64,000 nucleotides of DNA from Methylophilus methylotrophus DSM 46235 = ATCC 53528. Its GTDB lineage: Bacteria; Pseudomonadota; Gammaproteobacteria; Burkholderiales; Methylophilaceae. The stretch is from contig NZ_KB905141.1 in assembly GCF_000378225.1 (NCBI RefSeq), positions 1,069,326 to 1,133,325 of the forward strand. Reading direction: 5' to 3'. Positions within the stretch are counted from its first letter, which is position 1; each line of letters begins with the position of its first letter. The position numbers and the translations under genes were made by a program. This document shows, one piece after another, positions 1 through 28,160 of this stretch. The notes below the pieces were generated by a model. It saw nothing but the letters and a program-made list of their open reading frames with translations, was not told the DNA's origin and ran no database searches.

Positions 1-78
1 TTCAGCATGCAGGACTGCTGGCATATTCAGGCCAATGAGTGCCGCCAGTACGGTGGTTTTAAGCGTGTTATTTTGCAT
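1..78 (-). CDS. TonB-dependent receptor, N-terminal fragment (probable)
   Basis: Only the first 26 codons lie in the window; the gene runs off the left edge. The peptide begins MQNNTLKTTVLAALIGLN and ends with a Sec cleavage-like LHA-E, so it is a signal peptide of an exported protein. Its position just downstream of an ECF sigma/FecR pair on the same strand is the usual place for the TonB-dependent receptor that such a pair controls (FecIRA arrangement). The receptor identity is inferred from context alone, because no mature sequence is visible. Confidence 0.55.
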   Translation of the reverse strand, partial: MQNNTLKTTVLAALIGLNMPAVLHAE

Positions 79-169
79 GGGTCGTCCGTCAATTACAGGT
101 CTTGTTAAACATGTAACTGGCGGGCGGGCAAAATGCCTGATATACGTGACTTAAAAGAAATGTAAAGTA

Positions 170-1159
170 CTACCGTTTAGGCTCGATCTGCAGTGCATTG
201 TCTTTTCGCTTCAAGCTCACCGGGAGTGATTGCGGCAAGGTTTGAATAAAGCTTTCAACCTCAGCGACTTTAACGACCGCATTGACTTTAGGCGTTTGAT
301 CGCCAAAGAACATGGCCTTGACGGTTGGGTTACGGTAACGCGACAAGGTATCGGCGACTTCAAACATATCGGCACGGTCAAAAATGATGCGGCCACTGGT
401 AAAGCTGAAGCTATCCGCCGCATTGCGGTTGACCTTGTGCGGTGCGCTCATTGGCTCAATCTCGGCCACCTCACCATTATGCAGGATGACTGCTTGCTCG
501 CTGCCATCTGCACGGGCTACCTGTACGCGGCCATGGTCGACACTGATACGTACTTTTTTACTGAGCTGGTTGACGGCAAAACGCGTGCCCAATACGGTGA
601 CTTTGGCTTGCGGAGTTTCAACCACAAATGGGCGGTCTGGGTCTTTGGTGACCTCAAAAATGGCTTCACCACGGCTGAGTTTCACCAGGCGCTGATGGCG
701 GTAGAACACAATCTCCATGGCGCTATTGGCGTTGGCCGTGACGACCGAGCCATCATCAAGCGTGCGTTTAAGCATTTGTGCGACAGCGGTGGTTTGCACC
801 TCGCTGGAGAGTGGCGCAGCCTGCCACTGCATATATTGCGTGCGGCCTAATAGGCCCAAGCCTGCACAGACAAGCATCACGGCCAGGCCAGAGCCCAGTT
901 TGGAGATTTTTTTGCGGCGGGCTGTTTGCTCAAAATAGAGTTTTTGCGAGAGCGCATTAGAGAGCTCTTTGAGCCTGGCGGTAGAGCTAAAGTCTTCCAT
1001 CGTGGCTTCAACCATCTGGTAGGCCGCCTGATGCCTGCGGTCTGACAGCAACCAGACTTCAAAGGTCGTCCGCTCGGGGGAGTCTGGCGCGACTTCACGC
1101 ATACGCACATACCAACGCGCCGCCGCTTGCCTGATCATGTCCTCGTGCTTGTGGCTCAT
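170..1159 (-). CDS. FecR-family anti-sigma / sigma regulator
   Basis: 329 aa. An N-terminal cytoplasmic FecR_N (DUF4880) region has the ARWYVRMRE motif at about residues 14-22. One membrane segment lies near residues 90-107 and is followed by a periplasmic FecR domain rich in the family motif (LDDGSVVTANANS, FEVTKDPDRPFVVETP, VTVLGTRFAV). The family relays a signal from the N-terminal domain of an outer-membrane receptor to its ECF sigma factor. The ATG at 1159 overlaps the sigma stop by one base (TGATG); a GTG at 1162 is a possible alternative, 8 bases after GAGG. It is clearly paralogous to the FecR at 26628-27653, so this is a second copy of the same regulatory module. The receptor it serves should be the gene cut off at the left edge. 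Confidence 0.93.
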   Translation of the reverse strand: MSHKHEDMIRQAAARWYVRMREVAPDSPERTTFEVWLLSDRRHQAAYQMVEATMEDFSSTARLKELSNALSQKLYFEQTARRKKISKLGSGLAVMLVCAGLGLLGRTQYMQWQAAPLSSEVQTTAVAQMLKRTLDDGSVVTANANSAMEIVFYRHQRLVKLSRGEAIFEVTKDPDRPFVVETPQAKVTVLGTRFAVNQLSKKVRISVDHGRVQVARADGSEQAVILHNGEVAEIEPMSAPHKVNRNAADSFSFTSGRIIFDRADMFEVADTLSRYRNPTVKAMFFGDQTPKVNAVVKVAEVESFIQTLPQSLPVSLKRKDNALQIEPKR

Positions 1160-1680
1160 CACACGTTTGCCTCTATGAGCTCGCGTGCACTGCTTAAATC
1201 AATGATGGCACGCATCACGTGACGCTCGACCATGTTTTTGCTAATGCCCAGCGCCGCCGCAATCTCGGTTTGAGTATGCCCTTCTACGCGGTACATCCAG
1301 AACACCTGGCGGCAACGTGGTGGTAGTTGTTCCAGAATCTGCTGGATCATCTCCAGCCGCTGCTTGATGTCACTGAGCTGCTCCACGGACAAGGTTGGCG
1401 TATCCAGCCATTCGCGGTTAAGACCTATTTCAGCTTCCAGGGAAACAAACCGTTGTGCGTGATGATAGCTGTCCACAATCAGGTTTTTGGCAATGCTACG
1501 CATGTAGGCATGCGGCTCGGCATCCTTGTTGGCACTGCCGGAAATGGTATAGCGGATCAAGGCATCATGCAGGATATCTTTGGCCAGGTGCGGACACGCA
1601 ACCTTAAAGCGTATATAACTGAGCAAATCGGTATACGCCCATTGCAGATTAATGCCACACCAAACCATTGTTTTATCCAT
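1159..1680 (-). CDS. ECF sigma-70 factor, FecI-like
   Basis: 173 aa with sigma region 2 (about 10-80, including AKDILHDALIRY) and region 4 (about 110-165, LPPRCRQVFWMYRVEGHTQT followed by the helix-turn-helix EIAAALGISKNMVERHVMRA). It directs RNA polymerase to the receptor promoter when released by its FecR partner. The start at MDKT aligns exactly with the paralogous sigma at 27660-28160 (MSET before AWCGIDLKW). However, an AAGGAG lies only one base before this ATG, and an in-frame GTG at 1719 would add 13 residues, so the start is uncertain. It is translationally coupled to the downstream fecR. A Fur-like palindrome sits about 70 bases upstream. Confidence 0.92.
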   Translation of the reverse strand: MDKTMVWCGINLQWAYTDLLSYIRFKVACPHLAKDILHDALIRYTISGSANKDAEPHAYMRSIAKNLIVDSYHHAQRFVSLEAEIGLNREWLDTPTLSVEQLSDIKQRLEMIQQILEQLPPRCRQVFWMYRVEGHTQTEIAAALGISKNMVERHVMRAIIDLSSARELIEANV

Positions 1681-1749
1681 GCTCCTTATTGGCAAAATGT
1701 GTGCCACCAAATCATGCACGCTTTTACTTGCTATGCGCGAACCTGCATC

Positions 1750-1768
1750 TGATATTGATGCTTATCAA
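1750..1768 (-). promoter_or_regulatory. candidate Fur box upstream of the FecI-like sigma
   Basis: The stretch TGATATTGATGCTTATCA is an imperfect palindrome (TGATA...TATCA). It matches about 13 of 19 positions of the classical Fur consensus by eye. It sits between the TonB terminator and the sigma gene, where an iron-starvation promoter would be expected. The match is visual only and not statistically tested. Confidence 0.4.
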
Positions 1769-1937: not shown

Positions 1938-2747
1938 TCACTCCAGCTTGAAAGCGACTGGTATTGTTATTTTGAAGCTTTTCTTTTTTAAACTGTCTTT
2001 CACGCCAAGTTGGGCAATCGCCTTTTTCACCATGCGCATGGCTTCTTCATCCAGCGGCACATGCTTGCTGCTATCTGCCAGTGACACATTCACCAACTCA
2101 CCTTTTACAAACTGCGCGACCACAGTCGCTTCACCTTCGAGATGACGGCGGATGGCGATCGGCGGATATTGTTTGCTTTTATTCACCAGCGAGCGCAACT
2201 GCTCGCCATAGTCACCCCAGGCATCATTGTCACTCGCACTGAGTTCGTCTGTTTCTGCAGTGGAAGTGGCCACCGGAGCCGCCGTTGGTTTGGCTTCTTT
2301 GGCAGTGCTTTCACTGCTTGTCGCTGATGTATGCGGCGCAGTGTCGGCTGTATTGCTGGTAGCAGGGGCCGGGGCAGGCTCAACCTTGGCTGGCGGCTGC
2401 ACAGGCTGCTCCTGCACACGGTAATCCGAGTCATTGTGACTAGGCGTCGCCAGCACCGGCTTGGGTGTTTCCACGGGTGTCACTGGCTTTACCACGGACT
2501 TGGGTTCCGCTTTTGGTGGTTCCGCAGGTTTGGGAGTCTCCACCGGCGGCGAAACCTGTTGTACTGCAGGCGCAGGGGCTTTGATCGAAAAAAACTCGAT
2601 TTCCATGCGCTCGGGGATAGCTGGCAATGTAATCTGGCTCAATTTTGGATAAATCATCGCCACCAGCAGATGCAACCCCAGCGACACTGCCACTGCTCGC
2701 CAAAGCAGTGAGTCATTGTGTGCTTGAGGATAAATCAGGGTGGTCAT
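1938..2747 (-). CDS. tonB: TonB energy-transducing protein
   Basis: 269 aa. An N-terminal membrane anchor (about residues 15-35, RAVAVSLGLHLLVAMIY, with the SxxxH-type helix) is followed by a long Pro/Lys/Glu/Ala-rich periplasmic spacer (about 55-170). The C-terminal TonB domain (about 180-265) contains YPPIAIRRHLEGEATVVAQF and VAFKLE. TonB spans the periplasm and transmits proton-motive force from ExbB-ExbD to outer-membrane receptors. It starts 6 bases after the exbD stop and is the last gene of the exbB-exbD-tonB unit. Placement between a T2SS operon and a sigma/FecR/receptor unit suggests a dedicated TonB, as HasB is for the Has system. Confidence 0.93.
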   Translation of the reverse strand: MTTLIYPQAHNDSLLWRAVAVSLGLHLLVAMIYPKLSQITLPAIPERMEIEFFSIKAPAPAVQQVSPPVETPKPAEPPKAEPKSVVKPVTPVETPKPVLATPSHNDSDYRVQEQPVQPPAKVEPAPAPATSNTADTAPHTSATSSESTAKEAKPTAAPVATSTAETDELSASDNDAWGDYGEQLRSLVNKSKQYPPIAIRRHLEGEATVVAQFVKGELVNVSLADSSKHVPLDEEAMRMVKKAIAQLGVKDSLKKKSFKITIPVAFKLE

Positions 2748-2753: not shown

Positions 2754-3167
2754 TTATTTCCGGGACTCTGGCGACATGACAAAACTGAACTTGCTGATGC
2801 CTGCTCGCTGTATCGCTGCCAGCACTTTTGCCACCATGCCATACTGCGCATGTTCATCGGCATAAATTTCTACCGCCGGATCATGCTTTTGCTTTAACGT
2901 CCCCAACTCTGTAGTCAGGCTATCAAGCGGCATATTTTTCTGGTCCAGGAACACATCCCCGGTATCTGTCACACTGATATGCGCGGTTTTGGGCACCGTC
3001 ACCGCCACCTCGGCACTGGCCTGCGGCAGCTTGACCTTGACGGCATTCATCAGCAACGGCGCTGTGACGATAAACACAGTCAGCAATACCAGCATCACAT
3101 CGACCAGCGGCGTCACGTTGATTTCGCTCACTAAGTCTTCACTCTCACTTTCACTAAACATGGCCAT
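2754..3167 (-). CDS. exbD: ExbD/TolR-family biopolymer transport protein
   Basis: 137 aa. A short cytoplasmic N-terminus carries the family signature EINVTPLVDVMLVLL at about residues 15-29. This contains the conserved membrane-embedded Asp needed for proton coupling (LVDVMLVLLTVFIVTAPLL), and a periplasmic domain follows. It begins 4 bases after the exbB stop and is followed by tonB. Together the three genes encode the inner-membrane proton-driven motor for TonB-dependent transport. ExbD rather than TolR is favoured because the partner downstream is TonB, not TolA. Confidence 0.93.
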   Translation of the reverse strand: MAMFSESESEDLVSEINVTPLVDVMLVLLTVFIVTAPLLMNAVKVKLPQASAEVAVTVPKTAHISVTDTGDVFLDQKNMPLDSLTTELGTLKQKHDPAVEIYADEHAQYGMVAKVLAAIQRAGISKFSFVMSPESRK

Positions 3168-3171: not shown

Positions 3172-3810
3172 TTAACCCTCCGCGCCAGATTGTGTCAGCA
3201 GCGATTGAAAACGGCTGGCGACCTGCTCCATCTCAGCCCTGAGCACCTTCTGCTTGCGCATAAAGTAGTTGTACGCCAGCACGGCGGGGACTGCAGTGGC
3301 AATGCCAATGGCTGTAGCAATCAAAGCTTCCCCAATCGGCCCAGCCACCACATCCAGGCCAGCAGAACCGGTCGCTGTAATGGTACGCAGCGCGTTCATA
3401 ATGCCCCACACAGTACCGAACAAGCCGATAAAGGGCGCAGTAGAACCGATGCTGGCCAAGATGGCCACGCCACCATCCATGCGCTTTTGCTCCAGGTAGG
3501 CTTGCTGCTTGAGTGAGAGCAAAATCACTTCCTGGCGCTCATTTCTGCGAAGTACAGAGTTGGCCATCGCCTCGTTCATGGCCCGCATACCTGCATCACA
3601 CAACCGCGCAAAGCTGCTGTTGCTGTGCGCAATCAATTTGGGCAACTCGTAAATGGTTTTAACATGCTGCCACTCGGTGAGGAATTGATTAGACTCGCCC
3701 CCTGACCTGTACCAAGCCCAACCCTTAAACAGAATGATGGACCATACTAGGACTGATAACCCGCCCAGCAAATACAACACAACATCTACAATATCCGGTA
3801 CCAAATCCAC
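3172..3810 (-). CDS. exbB: ExbB/TolQ/MotA-family proton channel protein
   Basis: 212 aa with three membrane segments (about 10-30, 105-130 and 150-175) and the MotA/TolQ/ExbB signature (ASIGSTAPFIGLFGTVWGIM, then IGEALIATAIGIATAVPAVLAYN). It forms the pentameric channel that, with ExbD, powers TonB. The start is a GTG at 3810 preceded by CGGAG at 6-nt spacing. It is the first gene of exbB-exbD-tonB. About 200 bases separate it from the upstream T2SS operon with no convincing terminator between them, so it may have its own promoter or be read through. Confidence 0.93.
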   Translation of the reverse strand: MDLVPDIVDVVLYLLGGLSVLVWSIILFKGWAWYRSGGESNQFLTEWQHVKTIYELPKLIAHSNSSFARLCDAGMRAMNEAMANSVLRRNERQEVILLSLKQQAYLEQKRMDGGVAILASIGSTAPFIGLFGTVWGIMNALRTITATGSAGLDVVAGPIGEALIATAIGIATAVPAVLAYNYFMRKQKVLRAEMEQVASRFQSLLTQSGAEG

Positions 3811-4011: not shown

Positions 4012-4506
4012 CTACATGCTTGCGGCGTTACTGCTGATGGGTGGTGGCACATAGACAAAATACCACTCGCCGTAATAGCGCTTGTTATTCAAATGCTCAA
4101 GGTTGCCGCGATAGCCTTTGGTTTTAAAAGGCGGCTTGTCTGACAAGCTGTAAATGCCCATGATGCCGCCACTGGGGGCTTCTACAATGCCCCAACCTTC
4201 GCGTTGCGTGATGGGGTCCAGATACATCTTGCGCAAATGACGGCGTGCCGTGGGGAAGCGCGTATCTTCGTGCAGGGCTTCCAGCGTAGGCGGGTAGGTT
4301 TTGACTACGCCAGGCGTCTGGTTGTAGTAGCGGCCAATAGCGTCACGATAAGCCAGTCCAACCTTAATCAGCTCTTGCTCACGTTCACGTAGCACCTGGG
4401 TTTGCCAGCGCATGCTGGCTTGCGCCATCACCAGACCACTGAGCATGATCATCATAAACATGCCGATCAATACAAAGCCACTGCAGAAAGGCTTACCACA
4501 ACGCAT
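4012..4506 (-). CDS. T2SS minor pseudopilin, GspK-like tip type lacking Glu5
   Basis: 164 aa. A prepilin-like N-terminus (CSG-FVLIGMFMMIML) is followed by a hydrophobic helix and an amphipathic segment (LREREQELIKVGLAYRDAI). The rest resembles a betaproteobacterial T2SS-associated family (YYNQTPG, YPPTLEALHED, RRHLRKMYLDPIT). The fifth mature residue is Gly, not the Glu found in most pseudopilins. Among known pseudopilins that absence is typical of GspK, the tip subunit, but otherwise this protein is smaller than GspK. The chosen start (MRCGKPF) puts the prepilin motif at a normal distance and overlaps the previous gene by 14 bases. It is the last gene of the T2SS operon. The specific tip role is inference. 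Confidence 0.78.
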   Translation of the reverse strand: MRCGKPFCSGFVLIGMFMMIMLSGLVMAQASMRWQTQVLREREQELIKVGLAYRDAIGRYYNQTPGVVKTYPPTLEALHEDTRFPTARRHLRKMYLDPITQREGWGIVEAPSGGIMGIYSLSDKPPFKTKGYRGNLEHLNNKRYYGEWYFVYVPPPISSNAASM

Positions 4507-4864
4507 ACGGCGTCCCGTCCTCGGACAGTAATGCCGAGCCACTGTGCACATCAAACACACTGCCCTGCTCGTCTATATTAGGTGGCAGTGTAATCACCCA
4601 GGTGTCTGTGCGCTCGGTGATGGGGTCGGGCGGAATGGCTTTGAGGTATTGCCGTTCGACCAGCTCATCCAGCGTGTCGGGGTAACGGTTTTTATCGCTA
4701 TAAAACTTGTCGATGGCATCGCGCATGGTCAGCAGGTCATGACGCAGGCTGGTTTCCTTGGAACGTTGCAGCATATGCATAAACTTGGGCGTGACGATGG
4801 TCAGCAGCATGGCCAGGATCGCTAGTACGACCAGCATTTCAATCAGGGTGAATCCGCGTTTCAT
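4493..4864 (-). CDS. T2SS pseudopilin (GspH/GspG-like)
   Basis: 123 aa. The start MKRGFTLIEMLVVLAILAML is a complete class III prepilin signal: short basic leader, Gly cleavage site, FTLIE with Glu5, then a hydrophobic helix. It continues with a globular domain (AIDKFYSDKNRYPDTLDELV, AIPPDPITE). A prepilin peptidase would cleave after Gly4. The ATG lies 4 bases after the stop of the preceding pseudopilin gene, and a longer in-frame extension upstream is only a shadow of that gene. It probably assembles into the periplasmic pseudopilus together with the neighbouring pseudopilins. Confidence 0.85.
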   Translation of the reverse strand: MKRGFTLIEMLVVLAILAMLLTIVTPKFMHMLQRSKETSLRHDLLTMRDAIDKFYSDKNRYPDTLDELVERQYLKAIPPDPITERTDTWVITLPPNIDEQGSVFDVHSGSALLSEDGTPYALW

Positions 4865-4868: not shown

Positions 4869-5342
4869 TTACCACTCACTATAAGGTTGCTGGTTGATGC
4901 CGATGGCTGGCGAACGCGAGGACACGTCATAGACATCTTTGGCCATCTCGTCGATGGCACCATCATAGGCACGGATACGCCAGGTCTCGGCATTGCTTTG
5001 GCCCACGTCGGCCGCAAACGGGTCGCGCGGGATACGCCGCAAAAAAAACAGTTTTTTCTTTTTGGGATCCTGGGCATTTTCAACACCGCTGACCAGGATT
5101 ACCAGACTAGGCGGATAACCACTGCCATCGGCTGTTTTCTTGATCAACCCCTGGTCCGCCGCGTCTTTATAGGCATCCAGTGCATCGCGGATTTGCCACA
5201 AGGCACGCTTGAGCTCACGCTCTTTTTCGCGCTTGGTATTGAGTTGCACGACTGGACTGGCTGAGGTCACCAGCAAGGCGAGCAAGGCCAGTGTTACCAA
5301 TAACTCGACCAGAGTGAACCCTCGAGTGTAGCGTTTCCCCAT
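4869..5342 (-). CDS. T2SS pseudopilin
   Basis: 157 aa. The N-terminus MGKRYTRGFTLVELLVTLAL is a typical prepilin signal with Glu5. It is followed by a charged amphipathic region (NTKREKERELKRALWQIRDA) and a globular domain containing the insert DPKKKKLFFLRRIPRDPF. The ATG at 5342 has an AGG at 8-nt spacing; a TTG two codons earlier is an alternative. It follows the secretin gene by about 20 bases and precedes two further pseudopilin genes. Processing would need a prepilin peptidase encoded elsewhere. Confidence 0.86.
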   Translation of the reverse strand: MGKRYTRGFTLVELLVTLALLALLVTSASPVVQLNTKREKERELKRALWQIRDALDAYKDAADQGLIKKTADGSGYPPSLVILVSGVENAQDPKKKKLFFLRRIPRDPFAADVGQSNAETWRIRAYDGAIDEMAKDVYDVSSRSPAIGINQQPYSEW

Positions 5343-5363: not shown

Positions 5364-7331
5364 CTATGGTTGTACCGCACCGGGATCGGTCCCATTCATC
5401 ATCTGGTCGGCAAACCCGCTGTCGTTACGCAAATTATTGCTTTGCGTGGTTTGCGGCGTCACTGCAGGCGCTGCAGGCACAGGTTCATTGGCCTGAACCG
5501 TCCGTGCGCCACCAGCACCCAACGGATTGGCCGTGGCAGCAATCCCTGATGGAATCAGGCTGTAGACCGAACTGGCCGGACTCAGGTTATGCATGATGCG
5601 TGGCGTGATCAGCAACACAATTTCGTTCTTGCGCTTATCCTGGTTGTTGTTGCTGAACAACCTGCCGATCAGGGGCAGGTTGGCCAAACCGGGCACTTTA
5701 CGCCGGGTTTTCTGCTCATCGTCACGGAACAGGCCAGCCAGTATCTGCGTTTCATTATTGCGCAGCTGGAGGGTGGTATTGGCATTGCGACTGCCTATGG
5801 TGTAAGCCAGCACGCCCGAGCTGGTGGTGACCTGGTCAGTGATATTGCTGACCTCCATGCCCACCTTGATGCTGACCTGGTCCTGCATCTGGATCACCGG
5901 TTCCACATCCAGCTTGATGCCGACCTCAATATAATTCACGTTCTGGCTGACAAAGCCCTGCGCACTGGCGACACTGGTCAAGACCGGAATTTTGTCACCG
6001 ACATGAATCTTGGCGCGGTCACGGTTCTTGACGCGGATTTTGGGGCTGGCCAGCAGGTTGGTATCGGTATCCTGATGCAGCAAATTCAGTACCAGGGCGG
6101 GATCATTGATGGTAAATACGCCCAGGTTGCCATTGAAGTTACGTAACTCGGTCAGGGTCAGCTTGCCGGCTTGAGGTTGGGTGCCGTTACTGCTACCTGC
6201 CGCATTACCCTGTACCCCTACGCCGATCTGGCTTGGATACTGGATGCCCAGGTTTTCCAGGTTACGGCGGTTAATCTCCATGACCTCCACTTCGAGCATG
6301 ACTTCAGGTTCATTAAGGTCCTGCGAGGCAATGAGCTTTTCCGCCACTTTGATGCGGTCCATGGTGTCACGGATCACCAGCGTATTGAGCTTTTCATCAA
6401 TATAGACATCGCTAGCCCGCAACACGGTTTTCATCATATTGAGCGCACGCTTGGCATGCATATGCGTCAGGTAAAAACTGCGCACAAACAACTCCTCGTA
6501 CTGGGCTGCACGAGCTTGCGGGTAAATCAGCAGCGTGTTGCTGTTCAATATTTTCTTGCCGAGTTGATGGCTGGTCAGGATCACCTCCAGCGCCTGTTCT
6601 ATCGGTGTATCGCGCAACAATACATTGACGCGTATGCCTTCATTGAGCTCCTGGTCAAACGAAAAATTCAGGTTGCCCGCCTTACCAATATATTCAAATG
6701 CCTGTTTGACCGGGGTGTTTTTCAGTTCCAGCGTCACTTTCTTTTTGAGCGAAGACTGTAATGGCCGTACCACGCTACTTTTTTCGTTCTTCTTTTGTTC
6801 CAGTTGCTCGAACAATTGCCGCGCCTCGACATGCGCAGACTGCTCGGCCAGGATACTGCGCAAGCCAAACTCGGCACCGGCCCAGTCTTCAGCGGCAATC
6901 GCCATTTTCACCTGTTCAATCTGTGCTGAATGCTGACGTGCTGACTGCACCTTTTGCACGCCATCACTGGCGGCACGGTTATTCGGCGCCTCTTGCAACA
7001 CCTGCAGATACATGGCGCTGGCCGCATCGTATTGTTGCGAGGCGAGCAAACTATCGGCTTGTTGCAGCTGCTTTTGCAGTTTTTTCTCCTGCAACAGGCT
7101 GAGCCAGTTTTTATATTGCGGCTGCCGCGGGTTGGCTTCTACCAAAGGCTGCAAAAGCCTGATCGCTTCCTCATCCTGGCCGCGTGCCGCATAAATCCTG
7201 GCCTGTTCCAGGGTGGCATCGCCAGCCGGGTTTTCAGGCCCCAATCCGGCAGGGCTGAAGCTACTGCAACTGACCAGCCAGGGCAGTGCGCAGGCCCATA
7301 CCCAATGTTTATGATTGACTTTTTTATTCAA
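5364..7331 (-). CDS. secretin, outer-membrane channel of the T2SS (GspD/MshL-like lipoprotein)
   Basis: 655 aa. A signal peptide with lipobox LVSC (Cys22) is followed by a TPR-like helical region (about 35-160), secretin N domains (about 195-350, VTLELKNTPVKQAFEYIG, LLRDTPIEQALEVI) and the C-terminal secretin domain (about 350-590). The C-terminal domain carries the hallmark VPGLANLPLIGRLF. A Pro/Ala-rich tail ends the protein. Secretins form the gated outer-membrane pore. The N-terminal TPR fused to a single-lipobox secretin is closer to MshL/PilQ-like variants than to classical GspD and may remove the need for a separate pilotin. It overlaps the gspC-like gene by 4 bases (ATGA). Confidence 0.92.
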   Translation of the reverse strand: MNKKVNHKHWVWACALPWLVSCSSFSPAGLGPENPAGDATLEQARIYAARGQDEEAIRLLQPLVEANPRQPQYKNWLSLLQEKKLQKQLQQADSLLASQQYDAASAMYLQVLQEAPNNRAASDGVQKVQSARQHSAQIEQVKMAIAAEDWAGAEFGLRSILAEQSAHVEARQLFEQLEQKKNEKSSVVRPLQSSLKKKVTLELKNTPVKQAFEYIGKAGNLNFSFDQELNEGIRVNVLLRDTPIEQALEVILTSHQLGKKILNSNTLLIYPQARAAQYEELFVRSFYLTHMHAKRALNMMKTVLRASDVYIDEKLNTLVIRDTMDRIKVAEKLIASQDLNEPEVMLEVEVMEINRRNLENLGIQYPSQIGVGVQGNAAGSSNGTQPQAGKLTLTELRNFNGNLGVFTINDPALVLNLLHQDTDTNLLASPKIRVKNRDRAKIHVGDKIPVLTSVASAQGFVSQNVNYIEVGIKLDVEPVIQMQDQVSIKVGMEVSNITDQVTTSSGVLAYTIGSRNANTTLQLRNNETQILAGLFRDDEQKTRRKVPGLANLPLIGRLFSNNNQDKRKNEIVLLITPRIMHNLSPASSVYSLIPSGIAATANPLGAGGARTVQANEPVPAAPAVTPQTTQSNNLRNDSGFADQMMNGTDPGAVQP

Positions 7332-19535: not shown

Positions 19536-19550
19536 CCAAAGACTTCTCTT

Positions 19551-19594: not shown

Positions 19595-21763
19595 TTAAAC
19601 GATGATGAAGTCCGAAGTGGACAATGTGTTCACACCGGTCAGGATCGCGATGTCTACCTTGGCACCGCTACCATTGCCGTCAGCGTCATAGCTGAGGGTT
19701 TTAGTAGTAGTGTTGTAAACCAGGTAGTCATTGGCGTCTTGTGCTGTGCCTGTGCTGTTTACACGCAACATGCTGCTGTTAAACCCTGCCAACATGCTGT
19801 ACTGATCCAGGTGCAACTCGATTTTGTCGGTGCCACGGGTAAAGTCAGTAATGGTGTCTACCCCGGTCAGGTTAAACGCCGTGTTGGTATAGGTTTGCAC
19901 AGTGGTTGAAGAGCCTGTGACCACTTGCTCATACACTTTGCCGAAGACAAAGGTATCAGCACCGCCGCCGCCAGTCAGCGTATCGTTACCACCATTGCCG
20001 ACAAACACGTCAGCTTTAGTGGTACCAATAAAGGTCTGCTGGTTGGCATTGCCTTCAAAACGCAGGCCGTTTGCAGTCACGCCGGATGCATCCACCACCA
20101 CATTGTTGATGGTGCCGCCATTGTTACCCAAGGTGTTAGAGAGGTCAGCCACAGTGCCATTGGCCTTGAAGTAGTAATGATCGTTGAGCAACTGCAAATC
20201 GGTGTTTTCAACGTTCAAACGCCCCACTGTGCCACCCACTTGCACCACTTCCATAGACTGGAAGTTAGCATCATTCAGCACCACAGTACCATTGGCTTTG
20301 GTGTTGGCACCAATGCCTGTTGTGATCCGCAGAGTATCCACGCCATCACCACCTACGATCACATCGTGTTTAGCGCCAGTCGCGATCCACTCTTTGTTAC
20401 CGTCATCAGCCTTGGAAGTCGTGCCTTGCACACCACTACCAAAACCGCCGATCACAAAAATGTCATCGCCTTCACCACCGTCCAGGTAATCCGCACCGCC
20501 ATGACCGATCAACAGGTCATTGCCACCGTTACCGTATACAGTGTCATCACCCAAACGCATGGTCGCGTAGTCAACGCCTTCGCTACCCAATACGATCTCG
20601 TGTGCATCGCTGCCTTCGTTAGCACCATCAATACGGGTGAAGCTACCAGCTTCGCCTTCTGAAGCATCGTAGGTGACATCAACATTGAAGTAGAGGTGAG
20701 CAACGGAGAAATCATCCACCTCAAATACTGCTTTATCGTAGCTAACCGGAGTGGCACCTACAATGCTAGCAGCTGGTTCAAACTCTTCTTCTTCAAACTC
20801 AAGCTCGACAGTAACGTTTTCGACGGGACCACCAGCAACACCGTGGATTTGGTAGCCAGGGTTTAATTCACCCAAGCTCAGAGATTCGCCATTTTCTTCT
20901 AGCTGTTCGGCTTCTAGGGTGATGCTTACACCACTTGCTAACTCAATGCGCTCAATGCCAGAAAATTGAATACCTTCAAACTCTCCAGATTGAGTGAACT
21001 CTAGGGTATCCACTGCGTTATAACCCGCAACTGTCGTGGCGAACGTGCTTATTGCAGAAGAGCCTGGACGAGTAACAATGTTCAGACGAACATCGGTTTC
21101 TGCTTGCTCAGACATTTCTTCGTCATCGATTTCTACCACCAAGCCTGTTGTGGTATCAATTGCCACAAGCGGCGCATCTTCATCCACCTCACTGGACTCT
21201 TCAAGGTCTACATACCGCGCCTCATTACCTGAATTGTCCAAATCTGAAACACCAGCTTCGATAATTACACCCTCAGCATCCTCTTGACTGGTGATAACGA
21301 ATGTATCGTTACCCTCACCACCGATAATGGCATCATCGGAAGTGACAAAGTAAATGTTGCCATCAACACTCTCATCACCCGCAGTACTATCATCCCCTTG
21401 GAGATAATCAGCACCCTCTCCGCCGAACAATATATCATCGCCATCACCACCTAAAATGGTATCGTTTCCAGCACCACCAGCAAGAATGTCATCATCCTCA
21501 CCACCGAAGATACTATCGTCGCCATCACCACCATCTACATAATTATTGCCGTTACCTGCATCAATGATGTCATTACCAGCACCTCCAAAAATAACATCAT
21601 TACCTGTGCCGCCAATAATAACGTCGTCTCCGGCCCCACCAAAAACTACATTATTACCTTCACCAGTGTTAATAAAATTATTTAAAGCATTGCCGACTAT
21701 CAAATCAGAGTCAGCAGTCCCTGTGTACTCAACTTCAGTTGAGTTGAAAATCTTTACAGCCAT
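19595..21763 (-). CDS. RTX calcium-binding protein, probable T1SS substrate
   Basis: 722 aa, strongly acidic, with no cysteine and no Sec signal. An N-terminal RTX block (about residues 23-125) has roughly eleven GGxGxDxxx nonapeptides such as GGAGDDVII and GGTGNDVIF. Shorter blocks occur at about 405-435 and 585-607. The C-terminus (about 635-722) resembles the serralysin-type export region (DTITDFTRGTDKIEL, LSYDADGNGSG) and ends DFIIV, typical of uncleaved T1SS signals. No enzymatic domain was recognised. The start MAVKIFNSTE is set by AAGGAGA at 6 nt. Immediately upstream of the two-ABC T1SS, it is probably its cargo. It could be a surface-layer, adhesive or ligand-binding protein. Confidence 0.9.
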   Translation of the reverse strand: MAVKIFNSTEVEYTGTADSDLIVGNALNNFINTGEGNNVVFGGAGDDVIIGGTGNDVIFGGAGNDIIDAGNGNNYVDGGDGDDSIFGGEDDDILAGGAGNDTILGGDGDDILFGGEGADYLQGDDSTAGDESVDGNIYFVTSDDAIIGGEGNDTFVITSQEDAEGVIIEAGVSDLDNSGNEARYVDLEESSEVDEDAPLVAIDTTTGLVVEIDDEEMSEQAETDVRLNIVTRPGSSAISTFATTVAGYNAVDTLEFTQSGEFEGIQFSGIERIELASGVSITLEAEQLEENGESLSLGELNPGYQIHGVAGGPVENVTVELEFEEEEFEPAASIVGATPVSYDKAVFEVDDFSVAHLYFNVDVTYDASEGEAGSFTRIDGANEGSDAHEIVLGSEGVDYATMRLGDDTVYGNGGNDLLIGHGGADYLDGGEGDDIFVIGGFGSGVQGTTSKADDGNKEWIATGAKHDVIVGGDGVDTLRITTGIGANTKANGTVVLNDANFQSMEVVQVGGTVGRLNVENTDLQLLNDHYYFKANGTVADLSNTLGNNGGTINNVVVDASGVTANGLRFEGNANQQTFIGTTKADVFVGNGGNDTLTGGGGADTFVFGKVYEQVVTGSSTTVQTYTNTAFNLTGVDTITDFTRGTDKIELHLDQYSMLAGFNSSMLRVNSTGTAQDANDYLVYNTTTKTLSYDADGNGSGAKVDIAILTGVNTLSTSDFIIV

Positions 21764-21833: not shown

Positions 21834-22775
21834 TTATGGTGTACCAATGGCATAACCATCCATCAGGATTTCTTTAAATGTTGCATTTTCCTGAGCGGTT
21901 TGGCGTAACCGAATCGCATTGGTTTGCACAGTTGGATTGGCCGTGCATGAAGCTTGGATATACGTAAATGCAGTAACTGGATTCAAGCCGCCATCATCAT
22001 CCTGAAAGCCAGTGTCCAACGTAAAATCGACATAATTGTCATTGACCACAGCATCTTGCGTAGCAGCAGTTGTCGTCGCAGTAGTGCCAGCTGCGATTGG
22101 CGTGTTTTCACCAGAAATATTTGCAGTCACACTAGTTTTTGTTGGCAAGTCCAAATAGTTAGTCCCATTGAGTGCCTTATTCGCTGTAGTGTCGTACTTC
22201 AATGCTCTGTGCTGTACGGAGGTGAATGTTCTGCCAGCGCGGTAAACCGGTGAAGCATTGGATGCGAACAAGGTGTAAGCCACATTTACGGTACCTAAAC
22301 CTGAGAAACCACCTCTGGTTACATCGTTGATTTCAAAGATTTGAGTCCCGGCGCTTGAAAGATCATGATCAGCATTAATCATGGTCGCCCGCGTACCGAT
22401 AATGCACATGTTGGTGGAAGCATTTCTCCACGCATAGTCAACCAATGTACCAATATTGCCACCTGCACCTGTAGATGTTGGAATCTGTACAGAGCGACTG
22501 CCTACAAGAGTGTATCCAGACAGTGGGGAGGTTAACTCTGTAGAAGGTTTTGCAACCCAGCATGTGTTATTCACGGTTGTGCTAGGCGATGTGAATGGAC
22601 TATATGAGCCAAAATTGCCCTTTGGATCGGCAGCTGTGCGGCCATCGTTAAAACAATTGGTATAAGCAGATGAAGCAAAACCAGTAGCAGGCAAACCCAC
22701 AAAACCTGTTGCAAATGCATGGCTTGAGAATGTTAACGCACTTAAAACTGCCATTTTCAATAATGAGATTTTCAT
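21834..22775 (-). CDS. Sec-exported 313-aa protein of unknown function
   Basis: I do not recognise a family. A clear signal peptide (MKISLLKMAVLSALTFSS, cleavage near AFA-T) is followed by a Ser/Thr/Asn/Gly-rich, probably beta-rich body with a few spaced cysteines (TNCFND, NNTCWVA, NMCIIG, QASCTAN) that could form disulphides. There is no lipobox, no C-terminal sorting tag and no membrane segment. AGGAG precedes the ATG at about 6 nt. It sits between the large TonB-dependent receptor and the RTX gene in the secretion/uptake locus. As the only Sec-dependent soluble product there, it is the best local candidate for a T2SS substrate or a ligand-binding partner of the receptor; both ideas are inference. 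Confidence 0.85.
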   Translation of the reverse strand: MKISLLKMAVLSALTFSSHAFATGFVGLPATGFASSAYTNCFNDGRTAADPKGNFGSYSPFTSPSTTVNNTCWVAKPSTELTSPLSGYTLVGSRSVQIPTSTGAGGNIGTLVDYAWRNASTNMCIIGTRATMINADHDLSSAGTQIFEINDVTRGGFSGLGTVNVAYTLFASNASPVYRAGRTFTSVQHRALKYDTTANKALNGTNYLDLPTKTSVTANISGENTPIAAGTTATTTAATQDAVVNDNYVDFTLDTGFQDDDGGLNPVTAFTYIQASCTANPTVQTNAIRLRQTAQENATFKEILMDGYAIGTP

Positions 22776-22962: not shown

Positions 22963-25900
22963 TTAATTAGGCTCAAAATGCCAGTTCAGACTAAACCACA
23001 CTCCTCGCGGTGCGCCAGGCGCAATGAAATTTGTAGTTAACCAATCTCCGGAATTGTGGTTGTATCCGTCTGGCCCAACTGCTCCCAGGATACTTGGCGA
23101 AAATGGATTAAGCCCCAAACGCCCCGCACTGAAATACTCTTTGTCGAACAGATTGTTAACCACCATCGTCGCAGTCCACTCTTTGTTAAGTTTGTAACTG
23201 GTTTGAAAGTTAAAAGTCGCATAGCCGTCTACTTTGCCAGGATTGGTTGTGGGTTGCCGGTAGACGGTAGTAGGACCTTGACCAGGAATATTTACAAAAA
23301 TGGGCCGTGGTACCCCTGCACGATGTTCATTATTTTCATTTCCACGTAAATAACTGTCTGAATGAGCAACCATATTCAAACCCACTGTCCACTTGTCTGT
23401 CACGTCGTAACTGACGCTGGCGTTCAAGTTTTGTAGTGGAACACCTGGCATCCGATCACCGGGCTTTACCTGAATAACCCCATCCCCATAGCCACTCAGC
23501 GTAAACGCACTACTGTTAGAGTCGCTGAACATATAGAACTTGTCTTGGAAGGTGGCTTCAGTGAGGGAGTAGTTCACGCTAAAACGAAGCTTGTCTTTTT
23601 TACCAGACAGCCCAGCTTCTAAACCTCTACGGCGGGTTTTACCCACATTGTCAAAAAAACCTTGACCAGGAGAACCCACGGCGATGAAGTAGATATCGTT
23701 CCTAAGGTCTGTTTGATAGGCACCTACATTCCATTGCATATCCTCACCAATGGTGCCGCGCAAACCAATATCGTAAGTTGTGGCTCTAATCTGCTTGAGA
23801 TATGGATCGCCCGATAGAGTGGTGGGCAAAGAGCAAAAGCGGTTTTCTACAATACTGCGCGGTCCCATAACACCCGTGCTGCTGGGCACAGGGGTATCAT
23901 CAAATGCGCAACCCAACTCAATCACGCTAGGTGTACGAGTTCCCTGTGCAATATTGGCAAAAAAATTTAAATTCCCCTTGGCCTGCCAAGACATACCTAA
24001 TGAAGGATTAAAAGAGTAATAGGTGAATTTTTCTGTTTCAGGATTATCAAGAGAATTGAAGATGTCTGGTTGAAGGTAATTGGTTTCAACACCAGTGCAA
24101 TCACCATTCGGGCAAACATTGTAGTTATCTGGTACAGCGACCACATCACCAATCTGATACGCCCCGATACCATAACGGGCAGCGATTGTGTTTCTTACCT
24201 TGGTCTGGTTGTATCGTCCAGCAGCTGTAAAATGCAAAGTATCCACGGGCGTCCACGTGTCACTAAAATACAAGCTCTTGGTGACGCTAGTGCCATCAAA
24301 GTTATTATTGCTGATTGGCTGGAATGCGCCGGCAAATTGCGGGTTCGCCTGAGATGGATCAATGTAGACCTCCCTGTTTGCATTGATAAAAGCTAATTGC
24401 TGGGAGTTCCGATAATCGGCTCTTGCCGAGTCCAGGGACATGCCCACCATCAATTTATGCGTATCCAAGTTCCAGTTAAACTGGAGCGAAAAACCATCGA
24501 CAATTTGGTCAATCTGGTTATTAGTAATAATCCCTGTAGGTGTTCCATTCACCACACCAGATTGACCAGTACCGACACCATCAACTGTTGTCGGTAGCCC
24601 TGTTGCAGGATCTAAATAGGTATAGGCATTGCCTCCGTTATTACTACCACCGGATGCATTGGTAGCCTGAGTACTTGCGCAATTTTCAAGATTTGTTGGG
24701 GCCAGAGGAAGTATCAGATAACGAGTAATCGTGCCGCCTACTTGTTGTTGATAGTAATTATCAATTGTCAAAATGACGCCGCCTAAGTTACCTGTATACG
24801 CTCCTTCTTGCCAAACACTTGACGCTGCATTGTATGAAATATCGTCACCATAATCATAAGTTACTGTAGGGCCAGCCGTTACCGGCTCAACCGCTCCTCG
24901 ATCATAAACCGCTGTCACATAAGGGTTTTTCCAGTATGCAATAACATCTTGGAGTGATTTTGCATAATCTGCCGGCAGGGCTGTGTTTTTAAATGAATCG
25001 TAATTACCGTCCAATACGCCGTTATCAAACAAATCATTAAAAAATGAAGAACTTGATAAGTCAAACCCACCGGTTGTCGGGTCGATATCAAGTGGAATCG
25101 CATAATAATCTGGCACCCCATAAGAGTTTGTACTATTAAATAAGCAGGTATATTGTTCTGGGGTACCTGTTGTGCCATTGATACCCGGCCTACGTCGCGC
25201 TAAAAGCTCTTGGTCATAATCAGTGAAGACATCCCCGCTTTTCTGCTTACGTTTACTATTACGATGGTATGCTTGGCCTGTAATAGTAAATTTATCGTTG
25301 ACAAAATAACTGCCAGATAACTGAAACTGAGCTAATTGATTTTTTGTCACATCCGGGCTGGTATAAACGCCATCCCTGTTTTGTTCATACTCATTTGTTG
25401 GAATCAATCCATTCCCAGTCAGATCAGTCTTTACGAGTAATGTACTGAGATTAAGGTCTAAGTTATCTCCTCGATAACTGCCCTTGGTAAACAATTGATT
25501 AACCCTACTTGGAGAGTTTTTTCTCCAGCCATCCTCCAAAAATAAGTTACCTGCCGCGAACAATCCCACTGTGCCGTTGTTCCAGCCACCCTCCAGTTGC
25601 AGTTGCTTACGACCAAATGATCCTGTCAGTATGTCAACATCTGCGCCAGCATTATTAAAGCCATCCTTGGTTTTAAGTGAGAATGCCCCACCCAGAGTAT
25701 TCAAACCAAAAATAGGATTTGAGCCAGGAAACACGTCTACACTTGCCAAGGCATTCATGGGCAACATGTCCCAGTTCACCACATCACCAAATGGCTCGTT
25801 CACACGAATACCATCAATAAACACTGACAAACCTTGCGGGGTACCAATCTGTGGCCCTGCGGTAAAACCACGATACTGCACATCCATCTGGAACGGATTG

Positions 25901-26481
25901 CCCTGATAATCATTCACTGTGACCGATTGCAGCTTGCGGTTCATCAAGTCTGTAATACTCAATGAGTGTGCTTCTTTAATCTCTTTGGCAGAGATACTTT
26001 GGACATTGCCAGGGATTTCTTCTTTGGTTAGCCCTAGACCAGGCAGTGGGCCGACTTCATAAAAGCGTTTGGCGCGGACTTCAACCTTGTCGAGCTGCAC
26101 GCTCTTATTATCTTCTTTAGGTGCCTTTTGAATAATGACATTACTGCCTTCAACTTTAGGCACAAGCCCGCTCTCGCCCAACACGCGTTGCAGTGCTTCT
26201 TTGCGCGTCATACGGCCGCGCACTTCGGGTGCGGTTTTGCCGGAAACCACGTCGTTGGGGAATGAAATATTCATGCCCGTGGCCTTGCCAAGGTCATGCA
26301 ATGAGTTAGCCAACGGCTGCGCTGGAATATCAACGTTAACGGGCACACTAAAAGTTTCCTCCTGCTGTTTAGGCAACTGGGTATTTAATGCTTCTGCCCA
26401 CACTGGTTGCGATGCCATCACGCTCAAAGCAGCTAACGCAGTGTGTATTCCTCTTCTGTTTAATTTTTTATATGTACTCAC
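22963..26481 (-). CDS. TonB-dependent outer-membrane receptor with STN signalling domain
   Basis: 1172 aa from a GTG at 26481, supported by AGGAG at about 6 nt. The signal peptide ends VWA-E. An STN domain (about 45-125, VDIPAQPLANSLHDLG) serves transmembrane signalling to FecR. A plug (about 145-275, with VFIDGIRVNEPFG and NTLGGAFSLKTKDG) and a beta barrel ending in a C-terminal aromatic-rich strand (WFSLNWHFEPN) follow. Receptors of this type usually have 700-900 residues; the excess is a large Asn/Ser/Gly-rich insertion at about 430-660, probably an extracellular loop. It is preceded by a sigma/FecR pair and followed by secreted-protein genes. Its base composition is visibly more A/T-rich than that of the T2SS genes. 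The substrate is unknown. Confidence 0.94.
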   Translation of the reverse strand: MSTYKKLNRRGIHTALAALSVMASQPVWAEALNTQLPKQQEETFSVPVNVDIPAQPLANSLHDLGKATGMNISFPNDVVSGKTAPEVRGRMTRKEALQRVLGESGLVPKVEGSNVIIQKAPKEDNKSVQLDKVEVRAKRFYEVGPLPGLGLTKEEIPGNVQSISAKEIKEAHSLSITDLMNRKLQSVTVNDYQGNPFQMDVQYRGFTAGPQIGTPQGLSVFIDGIRVNEPFGDVVNWDMLPMNALASVDVFPGSNPIFGLNTLGGAFSLKTKDGFNNAGADVDILTGSFGRKQLQLEGGWNNGTVGLFAAGNLFLEDGWRKNSPSRVNQLFTKGSYRGDNLDLNLSTLLVKTDLTGNGLIPTNEYEQNRDGVYTSPDVTKNQLAQFQLSGSYFVNDKFTITGQAYHRNSKRKQKSGDVFTDYDQELLARRRPGINGTTGTPEQYTCLFNSTNSYGVPDYYAIPLDIDPTTGGFDLSSSSFFNDLFDNGVLDGNYDSFKNTALPADYAKSLQDVIAYWKNPYVTAVYDRGAVEPVTAGPTVTYDYGDDISYNAASSVWQEGAYTGNLGGVILTIDNYYQQQVGGTITRYLILPLAPTNLENCASTQATNASGGSNNGGNAYTYLDPATGLPTTVDGVGTGQSGVVNGTPTGIITNNQIDQIVDGFSLQFNWNLDTHKLMVGMSLDSARADYRNSQQLAFINANREVYIDPSQANPQFAGAFQPISNNNFDGTSVTKSLYFSDTWTPVDTLHFTAAGRYNQTKVRNTIAARYGIGAYQIGDVVAVPDNYNVCPNGDCTGVETNYLQPDIFNSLDNPETEKFTYYSFNPSLGMSWQAKGNLNFFANIAQGTRTPSVIELGCAFDDTPVPSSTGVMGPRSIVENRFCSLPTTLSGDPYLKQIRATTYDIGLRGTIGEDMQWNVGAYQTDLRNDIYFIAVGSPGQGFFDNVGKTRRRGLEAGLSGKKDKLRFSVNYSLTEATFQDKFYMFSDSNSSAFTLSGYGDGVIQVKPGDRMPGVPLQNLNASVSYDVTDKWTVGLNMVAHSDSYLRGNENNEHRAGVPRPIFVNIPGQGPTTVYRQPTTNPGKVDGYATFNFQTSYKLNKEWTATMVVNNLFDKEYFSAGRLGLNPFSPSILGAVGPDGYNHNSGDWLTTNFIAPGAPRGVWFSLNWHFEPN

Positions 26482-26524
26482 AGACTTCTCCTGTCTATGA
26501 CTCATCTGTGAGTGAGGCAAAAAC

Positions 26525-26593: not shown

Positions 26594-26620
26594 AAAAAAG
26601 CGCCATGAATGGCGCTTTTT
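26594..26620 (-). terminator. Rho-independent terminator after fecR
   Basis: On the minus strand AAAAAGCGCC pairs with GGCGCTTTTT around a 6-base loop and ends in a run of six T residues. It separates the sigma/FecR transcript from the receptor gene, which therefore needs its own promoter, presumably read by the ECF sigma factor. The symmetrical sequence could also act in the other direction. Confidence 0.88.
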
Positions 26621-26627
26621 GTTGGGA

Positions 26628-27653
26628 TTATTGCTGGGAATTCAGCAGCGTATACTGCGGGCTTTCTTGCAGTCTGACCGGGGCAATATTGGGCAAACCA
26701 CGCAAGAACTGGTCTATATCCTGGATATTGATATCCGCAGAAATATTGCGTACCTGCTTGCCTTGGGAGTGCACCGGTTTAAGGCGGTAGCGGGAGACGG
26801 TATAGGCGATCTCACTGGTATCGGCGCGGTCAAATACCAGCCTGCCATTGAGGAAGGCAAAGGCATCCGAAGCCGGGCGGTTGACCAGGACCATGGCATG
26901 GTTGGGGTAGACCTCGACCACTTGTCCATTAGTAATTTCGCGTGAAATATCCAGTGGATTGCCAGCATTGCCTGATGTGCTTTCCAACTTGGGCTCTACT
27001 TTTACCCGGCCGTGATCCACACTGACACGCACCACCTGCTCCAGGCGGTTGACGGCGAAGCGTGTCCCCAGCACGGTGACTTTGGCGGTATCGGTTTCAA
27101 CGACAAAAGGACGGTCAGCGTCTTTGGTTACTTCAAACACAGCCTCGCCTTCTTTGAGCAACACGTGCCGTTCGTGGCGGTAATAGGTGACTTCCATATC
27201 GCTCTTGGCGCTCAGGGTGACTTTGGTGCCGTCATCCAGCGTTTTAATGGCGATTTGCCCGACCGGGTTTTGCGCGGCCATCTGCATGACGGGTTTGGCC
27301 TGCCAGACCTGGTACTGCTGGTGGGTGAAATAACCGGCCACACAGATAAAACAGACCACCATCACTTGCGCCAGGCGACGTTGCTTGGCTTTGCGGCGTG
27401 CCTCATTGGCAAGGAAAGCATGCTGCTCTGCTGCCTCTGCCAATTTAGAGAGGCCTTCAGTGGAATCCAGCTGGCCCATGGCGCGCGCGATACTATCGTA
27501 TTCGGCACCATGACGCGGGTCATCGGCTAGCCACTGCTCAAAGGCATGGTGTTCGGCATGACGCTGGTTGTGCCCATGCTCACGCATGCGCAGGTACCAG
27601 CGCGCAGCCATTTCACTGAGGGTCAGCGACTTTGAGTTAAGCGGCTTGGACAT
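26628..27653 (-). CDS. FecR-family sigma regulator
   Basis: 341 aa. The cytoplasmic N-terminus has ARWYLRMREHG and a FecR_N motif (FEQWLADDPRHGAEY). A membrane helix at about 92-110 (LAQVMVVCFICVAGYFTHQQ) precedes the periplasmic FecR domain (KTLDDGTKVTLSAKSD, FEVTKDADRPFVVET, VTVLGTRFAVNRL) and a C-terminal STN-interaction part. It holds or activates the ECF sigma encoded 6 bases upstream in response to the STN domain of the receptor encoded next. It is paralogous to the FecR at 170-1159, with near-identical central motifs. Confidence 0.95.
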   Translation of the reverse strand: MSKPLNSKSLTLSEMAARWYLRMREHGHNQRHAEHHAFEQWLADDPRHGAEYDSIARAMGQLDSTEGLSKLAEAAEQHAFLANEARRKAKQRRLAQVMVVCFICVAGYFTHQQYQVWQAKPVMQMAAQNPVGQIAIKTLDDGTKVTLSAKSDMEVTYYRHERHVLLKEGEAVFEVTKDADRPFVVETDTAKVTVLGTRFAVNRLEQVVRVSVDHGRVKVEPKLESTSGNAGNPLDISREITNGQVVEVYPNHAMVLVNRPASDAFAFLNGRLVFDRADTSEIAYTVSRYRLKPVHSQGKQVRNISADINIQDIDQFLRGLPNIAPVRLQESPQYTLLNSQQ

Positions 27654-27659
27654 GATGGC

Positions 27660-28160
27660 TTAATTGATGGCCTGTTGAAACGCGCGGATATCAAGCATGG
27701 CGCGGATCAGGTGTTTCTCGACCATATTGACGCTGATGTCCAGCTGCATGGCAATCTCGCGCTGCTTCATTTCGTCCACATGGTATAACCAGAATACCTG
27801 TCGGCATTTTTCCGGCAGCAGATCCACCACACGTTGCAGGTGATAGAGTTTTTGGCGGGTTTCGTATAGCTGCTCTGGCGTGCACTCGAGAATGAGTGCC
27901 GTTTCGTCTATCTGCTCTTCATCGACAAAACGCGTCCTGTAGCGGAACTCATCAACCAGCAAATGGTTGACGATGCCATTGAGGTAAGCTTGCGGGGACT
28001 CTTCGCGTGCCGGGTGACTGGAAACCGCAAAGAATACCAGCGCGTCATGCAGGATATCCTTGGCACGTTGCACACAGGCCGTACGACGCCCAATGCGTCG
28101 CAAGACATCGCTATATGCCCATTTCAAGTCTATGCCACACCAGGCTAATGTTTCGCTCAT
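27660..28160 (-). CDS. ECF sigma-70 factor, FecI-like
   Basis: 166 aa starting MSETLAWCGIDLKWAYSD. Region 2 is at about 10-80 (AKDILHDALVFFAV) and region 4 at about 105-160 (LLPEKCRQVFWLYHVDEMKQ, then the helix-turn-helix REIAMQLDISVNMVEKHLIR). The ATG at 28160 has GGGAG at about 7 nt; an upstream in-frame extension has no such support. It should drive transcription of the receptor and perhaps the whole secretion locus. A good Fur-like site lies about 70 bases upstream, suggesting iron control of the regulator itself. Confidence 0.93.
   Translation of the reverse strand: MSETLAWCGIDLKWAYSDVLRRIGRRTACVQRAKDILHDALVFFAVSSHPAREESPQAYLNGIVNHLLVDEFRYRTRFVDEEQIDETALILECTPEQLYETRQKLYHLQRVVDLLPEKCRQVFWLYHVDEMKQREIAMQLDISVNMVEKHLIRAMLDIRAFQQAIN

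Follow-up and report, generated by a model that had tools for sequence, protein, structure and literature searches.

A TonB-dependent receptor and a co-varying exported protein beside a divergent type II secretion system in Methylophilaceae: a candidate surface-signalling uptake locus

Three described systems come closest to the locus analysed here, a row of genes in Methylophilus methylotrophus DSM 46235 in which a TonB-dependent receptor and a 313-residue exported protein stand together with a type I secretion system (T1SS) and a type II secretion system (T2SS). The row lies in a 64,000-nucleotide stretch of contig NZ_KB905141.1 (positions 1,069,326 to 1,133,325; hereafter the window) from a genome of 2.86 Mb in 13 contigs. 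In the Has system the genes are ordered hasI-hasS-hasR-hasA-hasD-hasE-hasB, Fur sites are present, and the exported partner acts on its cognate receptor (PMC9249621). In Caulobacter, the lipoprotein ElpS (cc0170), which is induced by phosphate starvation, and the TonB receptor cc0171 are encoded directly upstream of a T2SS, an arrangement found in several species, and release of ElpS is reported to be T2SS-dependent (PMC2996285). PUMA3 of Pseudomonas aeruginosa comprises vreA-vreI-vreR, the hxc T2SS, a two-partner secretion system and exbBD (PMC2729926).

The window locus resembles each of these in part. As in Has, a sigma factor, an anti-sigma factor, a signalling receptor, an exported partner, an exporter and TonB follow one another in the same order (PMC9249621). 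Unlike Has, the locus has a T2SS inserted, the proposed partner is a four-cysteine protein assigned to that T2SS, the T1SS cargo candidate is an RTX protein, and there is no evidence for heme. As in Caulobacter, a receptor and an exported protein precede a T2SS, the likeness to ElpS being one of gene arrangement; the order there is gspC-N, and a T1SS, exbBD-tonB and sigma/FecR genes are not described in the part of that paper used here (PMC2996285). PUMA3 likewise brings together extracytoplasmic function (ECF) surface signalling, a T2SS, a second exporter with a large surface protein and exbBD, whereas VreA lacks a barrel, the second exporter is a two-partner secretion system and the T2SS cargo is alkaline phosphatase (PMC2729926). 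By the features that define PUMA3 the window locus falls outside it, in that its receptor has a barrel and T1SS genes occupy the second exporter's place. A partner gene directly downstream of a receptor gene, with a proposed surface location for the partner, also suggests an analogy with SusC-SusD, SusD being a surface lipoprotein of Bacteroidota. The original prediction, made from the letters of the window, knew of no description of such an arrangement; parts of it have been described, namely the Caulobacter combination of receptor, exported protein and T2SS (PMC2996285) and the PUMA3 combination of ECF signalling, T2SS, second exporter and exbBD (PMC2729926). In titles and abstracts of the open-licence literature we found no description of the union of Has, ElpS and PUMA3 features, of the family of the 313-residue protein, or of matched receptor-partner diversification on a little-changing export background.

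The reading that we favour, and to which we give about even credence on the evidence of gene content and comparison, is that the locus may be one iron-controlled, surface-signalling uptake apparatus built around a matched pair, a TonB-dependent receptor and transducer with the 313-residue protein as its partner. At its centre would be the receptor and a partner exported by the T2SS, with the RTX protein and T1SS as accessories; the ligand, its import and the assignment of cargo to exporter are what we infer. Open reading frame (ORF) calls and translations place 25 consecutive genes, all on the minus strand, at 170-28205 of the window. They run from a sigma factor, FecR, an STN-type receptor, the 313-residue protein, the RTX protein, tandem PrtD-type ABC exporters, HlyD and TolC to a divergent type II system, exbB-exbD-tonB, and a second sigma factor and FecR, after which a second receptor begins. 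This row had been foreseen in the order found, with tolC and gspG 25 bases apart, and all of its named genes are present on the minus strand. Profiles back most of the names: those of the receptor, RTX protein, ABC exporters, HlyD, TolC, GspG, GspF, GspE, secretin, ExbB and TonB hold, while those of the split GspL, the GspM-like and GspC-like proteins and the third pseudopilin are weak or positional.

The 313-residue protein (21834..22775) and the T2SS form a constant core. In a survey of 187 Methylophilaceae genomes, a secretin match was taken as orthologous at E <1e-190, a threshold reached in 39 of the 79 matched genomes (next match 1e-145). Strong profile matches to the 313-residue protein fall in the identical set of 39 of 187 genomes, and none is found in the other 40 of the 79, where the secretin matches are weaker and mostly paralogues; one genome outside the 39 (G371) has a weak match (2.9e-7), which was not counted. 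This agreement is favoured by the profile itself, which was built from these same loci, and the Fisher p values computed on such sets take no account of kinship. Thirty-eight related loci were retrieved, with extra flank for 13; after omission of two split over contigs (G375 and G420), 36 are readable, or 37 with the window. The T2SS is present in all 37, as is a gene for the 313-residue protein upstream of gspG, and a receptor lies upstream in 35, in 33 of the 37 within 800 bp upstream of the 313-residue gene. The loci differ little in gene order: the receptor comes first, then one to three genes of the 313-residue family, RTX protein and T1SS if present, often another gene of the 313-residue family, then gspG onward. 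Two loci depart from it in having no same-strand receptor upstream (G116, and G348, where the contig ends). Chance adjacency was rejected, the core of 313-residue gene and gspG onward being kept in the readable loci of all 36 relatives.

The machine itself is a divergent T2SS, a label that rests on GspG and on the gene row. GspG, the major pseudopilin (12776..13201; PF08334, 1.4e-42), GspF (11560..12753; PF00482, 1.8e-53) and the ATPase GspE (9758..11458; PF00437, 8.9e-126) are encoded together with a secretin (5364..7331; PF00263, 4.5e-39; STN, 1.3e-08; TPR_19, 1.1e-06), which has N-terminal TPR repeats and, judged by eye, a lipoprotein-like start, and with further pseudopilins. Two of the latter match N_methyl (pseudopilin 1, 4869..5342, 4.1e-08; pseudopilin 2, 4493..4864, start predicted, 1.1e-08), and the third is named from its conserved position, without a Pfam match (4012..4506, start predicted). 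Between gspE and the secretin gene lie the candidates for the remaining components. A GspL-like first half (8863..9900, start uncertain) is named from position and conserved order, and a GspL/PilN-like second half (8370..8882, start predicted) from position, its order being kept in part of the loci; neither has a Pfam match. The GspM/PilO-like (7819..8382) and GspC/GspB-like (7328..7822) proteins have sub-threshold matches only, to PilO (E 0.096) and T2SSB (E 0.011) respectively. NCBIfam equivalog cut-offs are missed by GspD, GspE and GspF (167, 496 and 278 bits versus 351, 630 and 424), and type IV pilus models score slightly higher than their type II counterparts (PilQ 171 versus GspD 167; PilB 504 versus GspE 496), all below cut-off, so that the scores leave room for a pilus-like machine.

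A second, paralogous T2SS with identical gene order is encoded elsewhere in the same genome (C2, L109:3580-12934), its secretin about 41% identical to that of the window; 2 kb past it lies an ORF judged by eye to be of PEP-CTERM type.

Plasmids of Burkholderiales also carry this type of T2SS; the five examined have a TPR/STN secretin and a largely similar gene order. The nearby genes that might specify cargo are varied, encoding an M4 peptidase, a phosphodiesterase (from the opposite strand) and unknown proteins. No relative of the 313-residue protein was found in the plasmid collection, even when queried with a distant homologue. The location of this machine beside a peptidase or phosphodiesterase gene on two plasmids would suit a T2SS that secretes other enzymes, the 313-residue protein being a periplasmic or unrelated exported bystander. 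A strong match that lies away from the T2SS (G348, C1:85908-86864, inside an 1149-residue frame that is possibly a fused form of the protein) points the same way. We nevertheless regard this explanation as very unlikely in view of a distribution identical to that of the secretin across the survey and the lack of strong matches where only weaker secretins occur.

In its sequence variation the 313-residue protein is linked to the receptor (22963..26520, start codon uncertain; PF00593, 2.4e-36; PF07715, 6.2e-16). Within Methylophilus, mean pairwise identity (between 11 and 14 of the 15 carriers, depending on the protein) is 83-85% for GspD, GspE and GspF, 87% for ExbB and 80% for the RTX protein, whereas the receptor averages 56% and the 313-residue protein 40%. 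Divergence of the receptor is localised: its STN domain is 93% and its TonB-box/plug part 91% identical, residues 430-640 only 29% (at most eight genomes). The two variable proteins vary together, since in partial Mantel tests given GspE distance receptor and partner correlate with r 0.60 over all genomes (n=29) and 0.71 within Methylophilus (n=11); these sets omit G465 and G466, in which the receptor is 3.7 kb away, and six genomes for which no receptor frame was picked. The partner tracks receptor residues 420-660 (0.69) and 661-1185 (0.65) more than STN plus plug (0.25; n=22). For the second receptor, which varies just as much, the value with the partner is -0.085, compared with 0.695 for the first receptor in the same nine genomes. 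As further controls, partner against RTX protein gives 0.18 (p 0.077, n=12), partner against secretin -0.07 in Methylophilus, and receptor against ExbB a negative value. Correlations with the RTX protein are within-genus only, two truncated frames spoiling the all-genome distances. Because of this co-variation we infer that partner and receptor may be in contact.

Several results weigh against so specific a pairing. STN plus plug also reach 0.65 (p 0.07) with six Methylophilus genomes, and the receptor tracks the RTX protein weakly (0.335, p 0.016, n=10, Methylophilus) and, when all genomes are taken, the secretin (0.205, p 0.013, n=29). Moreover, since receptor and partner frames are only 43-411 bp apart in 29 loci, joint recombination of the neighbouring genes could be the cause of part or all of the correlation. 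This spacing, a copy number of the 313-residue gene that ranges from 1 to 3, and the confinement of high variability to the receptor's barrel part and the 313-residue protein would all fit a surface-antigen arms race, in which receptor loops and 313-residue protein are targets of phages or bacteriocins and are swapped together through adjacency, contact being unnecessary. We consider such an arms race unlikely. In 19 genomes with at least two copies, the copy nearest to gspG nevertheless correlates with the receptor (0.60), in six of them across intervening T1SS genes, whereas the RTX protein, on the partner's other side, tracks the partner little. An arms race also leaves the co-occurrence with the T2SS unexplained.

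Distant homologues bear on both of these alternatives. The 313-residue protein has a signal-peptide-like start (judged by eye) and four cysteines, as do most members of its family; a few have two or more than four. It has no match in Pfam or NCBIfam, and the family has no sequence match in the PDB; scattered Pfam matches of single members (best E 0.0042) were taken as chance. A sample of 399 genomes from the order yielded no strong match outside the family Methylophilaceae; weak ones occur in ten genomes beyond it. Loci were read for seven of these ten (all but G490, G518 and G567) and for three of the twelve weak secondary matches within the family, giving 13 loci, ten in other families and three second loci in Methylophilaceae. 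A homologous receptor lies upstream on the same strand in 9 of the 13 (a single PEP-CTERM gene intervenes in two of these), and a T2SS block is present in none of the 13 within the stretch read. The receptor pairing is therefore separable from, and wider than, the T2SS link. Retention of the receptor at this distance argues against the arms race, while homologues without a nearby T2SS are what a bystander would predict. The favoured reading is also complicated by PEP-CTERM tails on four of the eight distant homologues scanned (L144, L142, L151 and L152). Those in L144, L151 and L152 are encoded downstream of TonB-dependent receptors, making them possible exosortase-dependent receptor partners, and where this T2SS link is absent, sorting of the partner may follow a different route. 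The idea that a PEP-CTERM route was replaced by the T2SS was dropped, both kinds being present in G072 and G358.

The components of the T1SS are adjacent: an RTX protein as proposed cargo (19595..21763; 722 residues without cysteine; PF00353, 3.8e-40, its sole Pfam match), two ABC exporters (17772..19565 and 16057..17775), an HlyD-type adaptor (14717..16066; PF13437, 5.3e-15) and a TolC-type outer membrane factor (13227..14570, start predicted; PF02321, 8.8e-60). The best model for both ABC proteins is TIGR01842 PrtD, with 515.8 bits for the first, over the cut-off of 510.15, and 508.9 for the second, slightly under it. An ABC exporter at 50% identity or more is found in 25 of the surveyed genomes, 24 of them within the 39-genome set (in G375 the match is a fragment; G333 and G424, both at 41%, and weaker matches are excluded). 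An RTX orthologue is found in 27, of which 26 lie within the set (G418, which lacks an orthologous secretin, is excluded); 24 of the 26 have it in a readable locus, and in G375 and G420 it is on contigs broken within the locus. Of the 37 loci, 24 have the RTX protein and 22 a complete T1SS, and both are accessory to the core. Where present, the T1SS diverges in parallel with GspE and GspD of the T2SS (r 0.92-0.97, n=22, a value inflated by the two main clades), and four gains or losses of the T1SS are required on the secretin tree. We read this as a long history common to T1SS and T2SS, with losses. The T1SS can nonetheless stand apart: in G191 the orthologous T1SS, accompanied by an RTX gene of its own, lies outside the locus, and in G470 it occurs in the absence of this T2SS.

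The description of this exporter as a single-cargo T1SS is not warranted, as three further ORFs with RTX repeats occur in the genome; two of them lie, with a 563-residue ORF of the ExbB family, within about 6 kb (C2:32138-38147). HasA has its own Pfam family; a HasA-like cargo was rejected, the RTX protein matching PF00353 only and the 313-residue protein nothing in Pfam. Of the proposed enlarged Has analogue, the has-like gene order and a Fur-like site at the first sigma gene stand, and the hemophore-like part is more likely the 313-residue protein than the RTX protein.

The RTX protein is unusually conserved over half its length: in 22 genomes of several genera with frames of more than 650 residues, identity in 60-residue windows is 76-91% across residues 241-660, versus 55-60% for the N-terminal repeats. 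A constant product of this kind could be the main one of a surface-coat or adhesion locus with a sensor, as in PUMA3, where an ECF system, the Hxc T2SS, a second exporter and exbBD are united (PMC2729926); a signal would switch on T1SS and T2SS, without import. Cyclic di-GMP genes adjoining the locus would suit such a function. We judge it improbable, however, since RTX protein and T1SS are missing from 13 and 15 of the 37 loci respectively, while the 313-residue protein is in all of them and the receptor in 35, the receptor has plug and barrel, and exbBD is found in 19.

These 19 loci are at the same time few for an uptake apparatus with its own motor, although the count is a lower bound, as are those of tonB (21 of 37), an upstream sigma gene (17) and an upstream FecR gene (18), because the stretches read end, several of them soon after the receptor. 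In the window, ExbB (3172..3810; PF01618, 1e-33), ExbD (2754..3167, named from sequence and position) and TonB (1938..2747; PF03544, 8.6e-10) are set off by larger gaps, 201 bases ahead of exbB and 218 ahead of the second sigma gene, while gaps from the receptor to the third pseudopilin are at most 187 bases and overlaps are frequent (some starts are provisional throughout). In four relatives a whole sigma/FecR/receptor set precedes exbB. Gaps and insertion together suggest that exbBD-tonB is a separate neighbouring unit, not the tail of a single operon; across relatives it shifts position or falls outside the sequence read. The trailing set consists of a second ECF sigma factor (1159..1719; Sigma70_r4_2, 6.1e-17 on 1159-1683), a second FecR-type regulator (170..1162, named from sequence and position) and a 1240-residue receptor. 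It is present as foreseen, save that the receptor starts at about position 78 and only its start (1..78) is in the window (L108:7682-11404). As for one machine uniting T1SS, T2SS and Ton motor, the locus is long inherited, and blocks lying apart in most relatives were not found among the 37 readable loci of the 187-genome survey; its T1SS, RTX and exbBD parts are inconstant.

Regulation of the first unit can be followed from its upstream end. The first ECF sigma factor (27660..28160, start predicted; Sigma70_r4_2, 1.6e-13) and FecR-type anti-sigma regulator (26628..27653; NF007296 FecR, 7.5e-26, under the model cut-off) are encoded beside the receptor gene, a candidate surface-signalling set in which both sigma factors of the locus have sigma-70 region 4 and the receptor's STN match (PF07660, 2.6e-05) is below cut-off at 24.4 versus 28.4 bits. 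Upstream of the sigma gene, a Fur-box-like site (28230..28244, minus strand) is kept in all eight aligned Methylophilus genomes, of 15 carriers, scoring 12 in seven and 11 in one; shuffled sequence of 250 bp yields a top score of at least 12 in 0.4% of cases. At two mismatches the genome has 11 Fur-like places, and the reversed control has 3. Apart from the site at the first sigma gene, four lie immediately ahead of genes that, from their translations, are feoA (then feoB), a TonB-dependent receptor with a barrel by profile, a bacterioferritin-associated ferredoxin and a FecI-like sigma factor; the remaining six have no recognised neighbour of this kind. The sigma genes of other genera cut the other way, having no preceding site that scores 11 or more, and Fur control outside Methylophilus is unsupported.

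From these elements the favoured reading can be cast as a mechanism. Fur would control the first sigma factor, and the ligand-bound receptor would signal through its STN domain and the first FecR to that sigma factor. The 313-residue protein would be exported by Sec, fold in the periplasm, probably with disulfides, and be placed at the surface by the adjacent T2SS, as suggested by co-occurrence, position and its signal-peptide-like start. There it would capture the ligand or present it to its cognate receptor at the variable region, like a hemophore or a SusD-like lid, with transport driven by the ExbBD-TonB of the locus or another. The T1SS, where present, would export the RTX protein as a constant coat or scaffold, not as a specificity part. 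A fuller version, possible though rather doubtful in our view, is a receptor-lid machine in which a species-matched partner is delivered through a dedicated T2SS over a constant RTX scaffold, and receptor and partner are swapped like a cassette, so that ligand specificity shifts while motor, signalling and export stay fixed. Cargo of T2SSs is usually regarded as enzymes; if the reading is correct, a T2SS given over to exporting a TonB-dependent receptor's partner would widen the role of this machine and provide a proteobacterial counterpart of receptor-lid uptake. The loci would also constitute a natural experiment, in which about thirty pairs of receptor and partner, suited to swapping, are set against a background that varies far less. 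Uptake of lanthanides or copper is unsupported, as the receptor's plasmid relatives near a PQQ-dependent dehydrogenase or an MbnP-type gene are too distant (about 36% identity).

Some loci have additional genes within the row. A TPR protein of 720-770 residues is encoded between the 313-residue gene and gspG in six genomes (L090:11002-13191; same place in G399, G474, G476, G477 and G191). The one scanned has a weak glycosyltransferase-9 (GT9) match, and the protein is a possible cargo-modifying enzyme. In G465 (L161:3043-6639) and G466, a gene of 1199 codons, in G465 an autotransporter by profile, lies between receptor and 313-residue gene and represents a third kind of export module within the locus. 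Adjoining the locus in the window, at 28546-38952, are genes for three EAL-domain proteins, two of them with GGDEF, an HD-domain response regulator and a large hybrid kinase.

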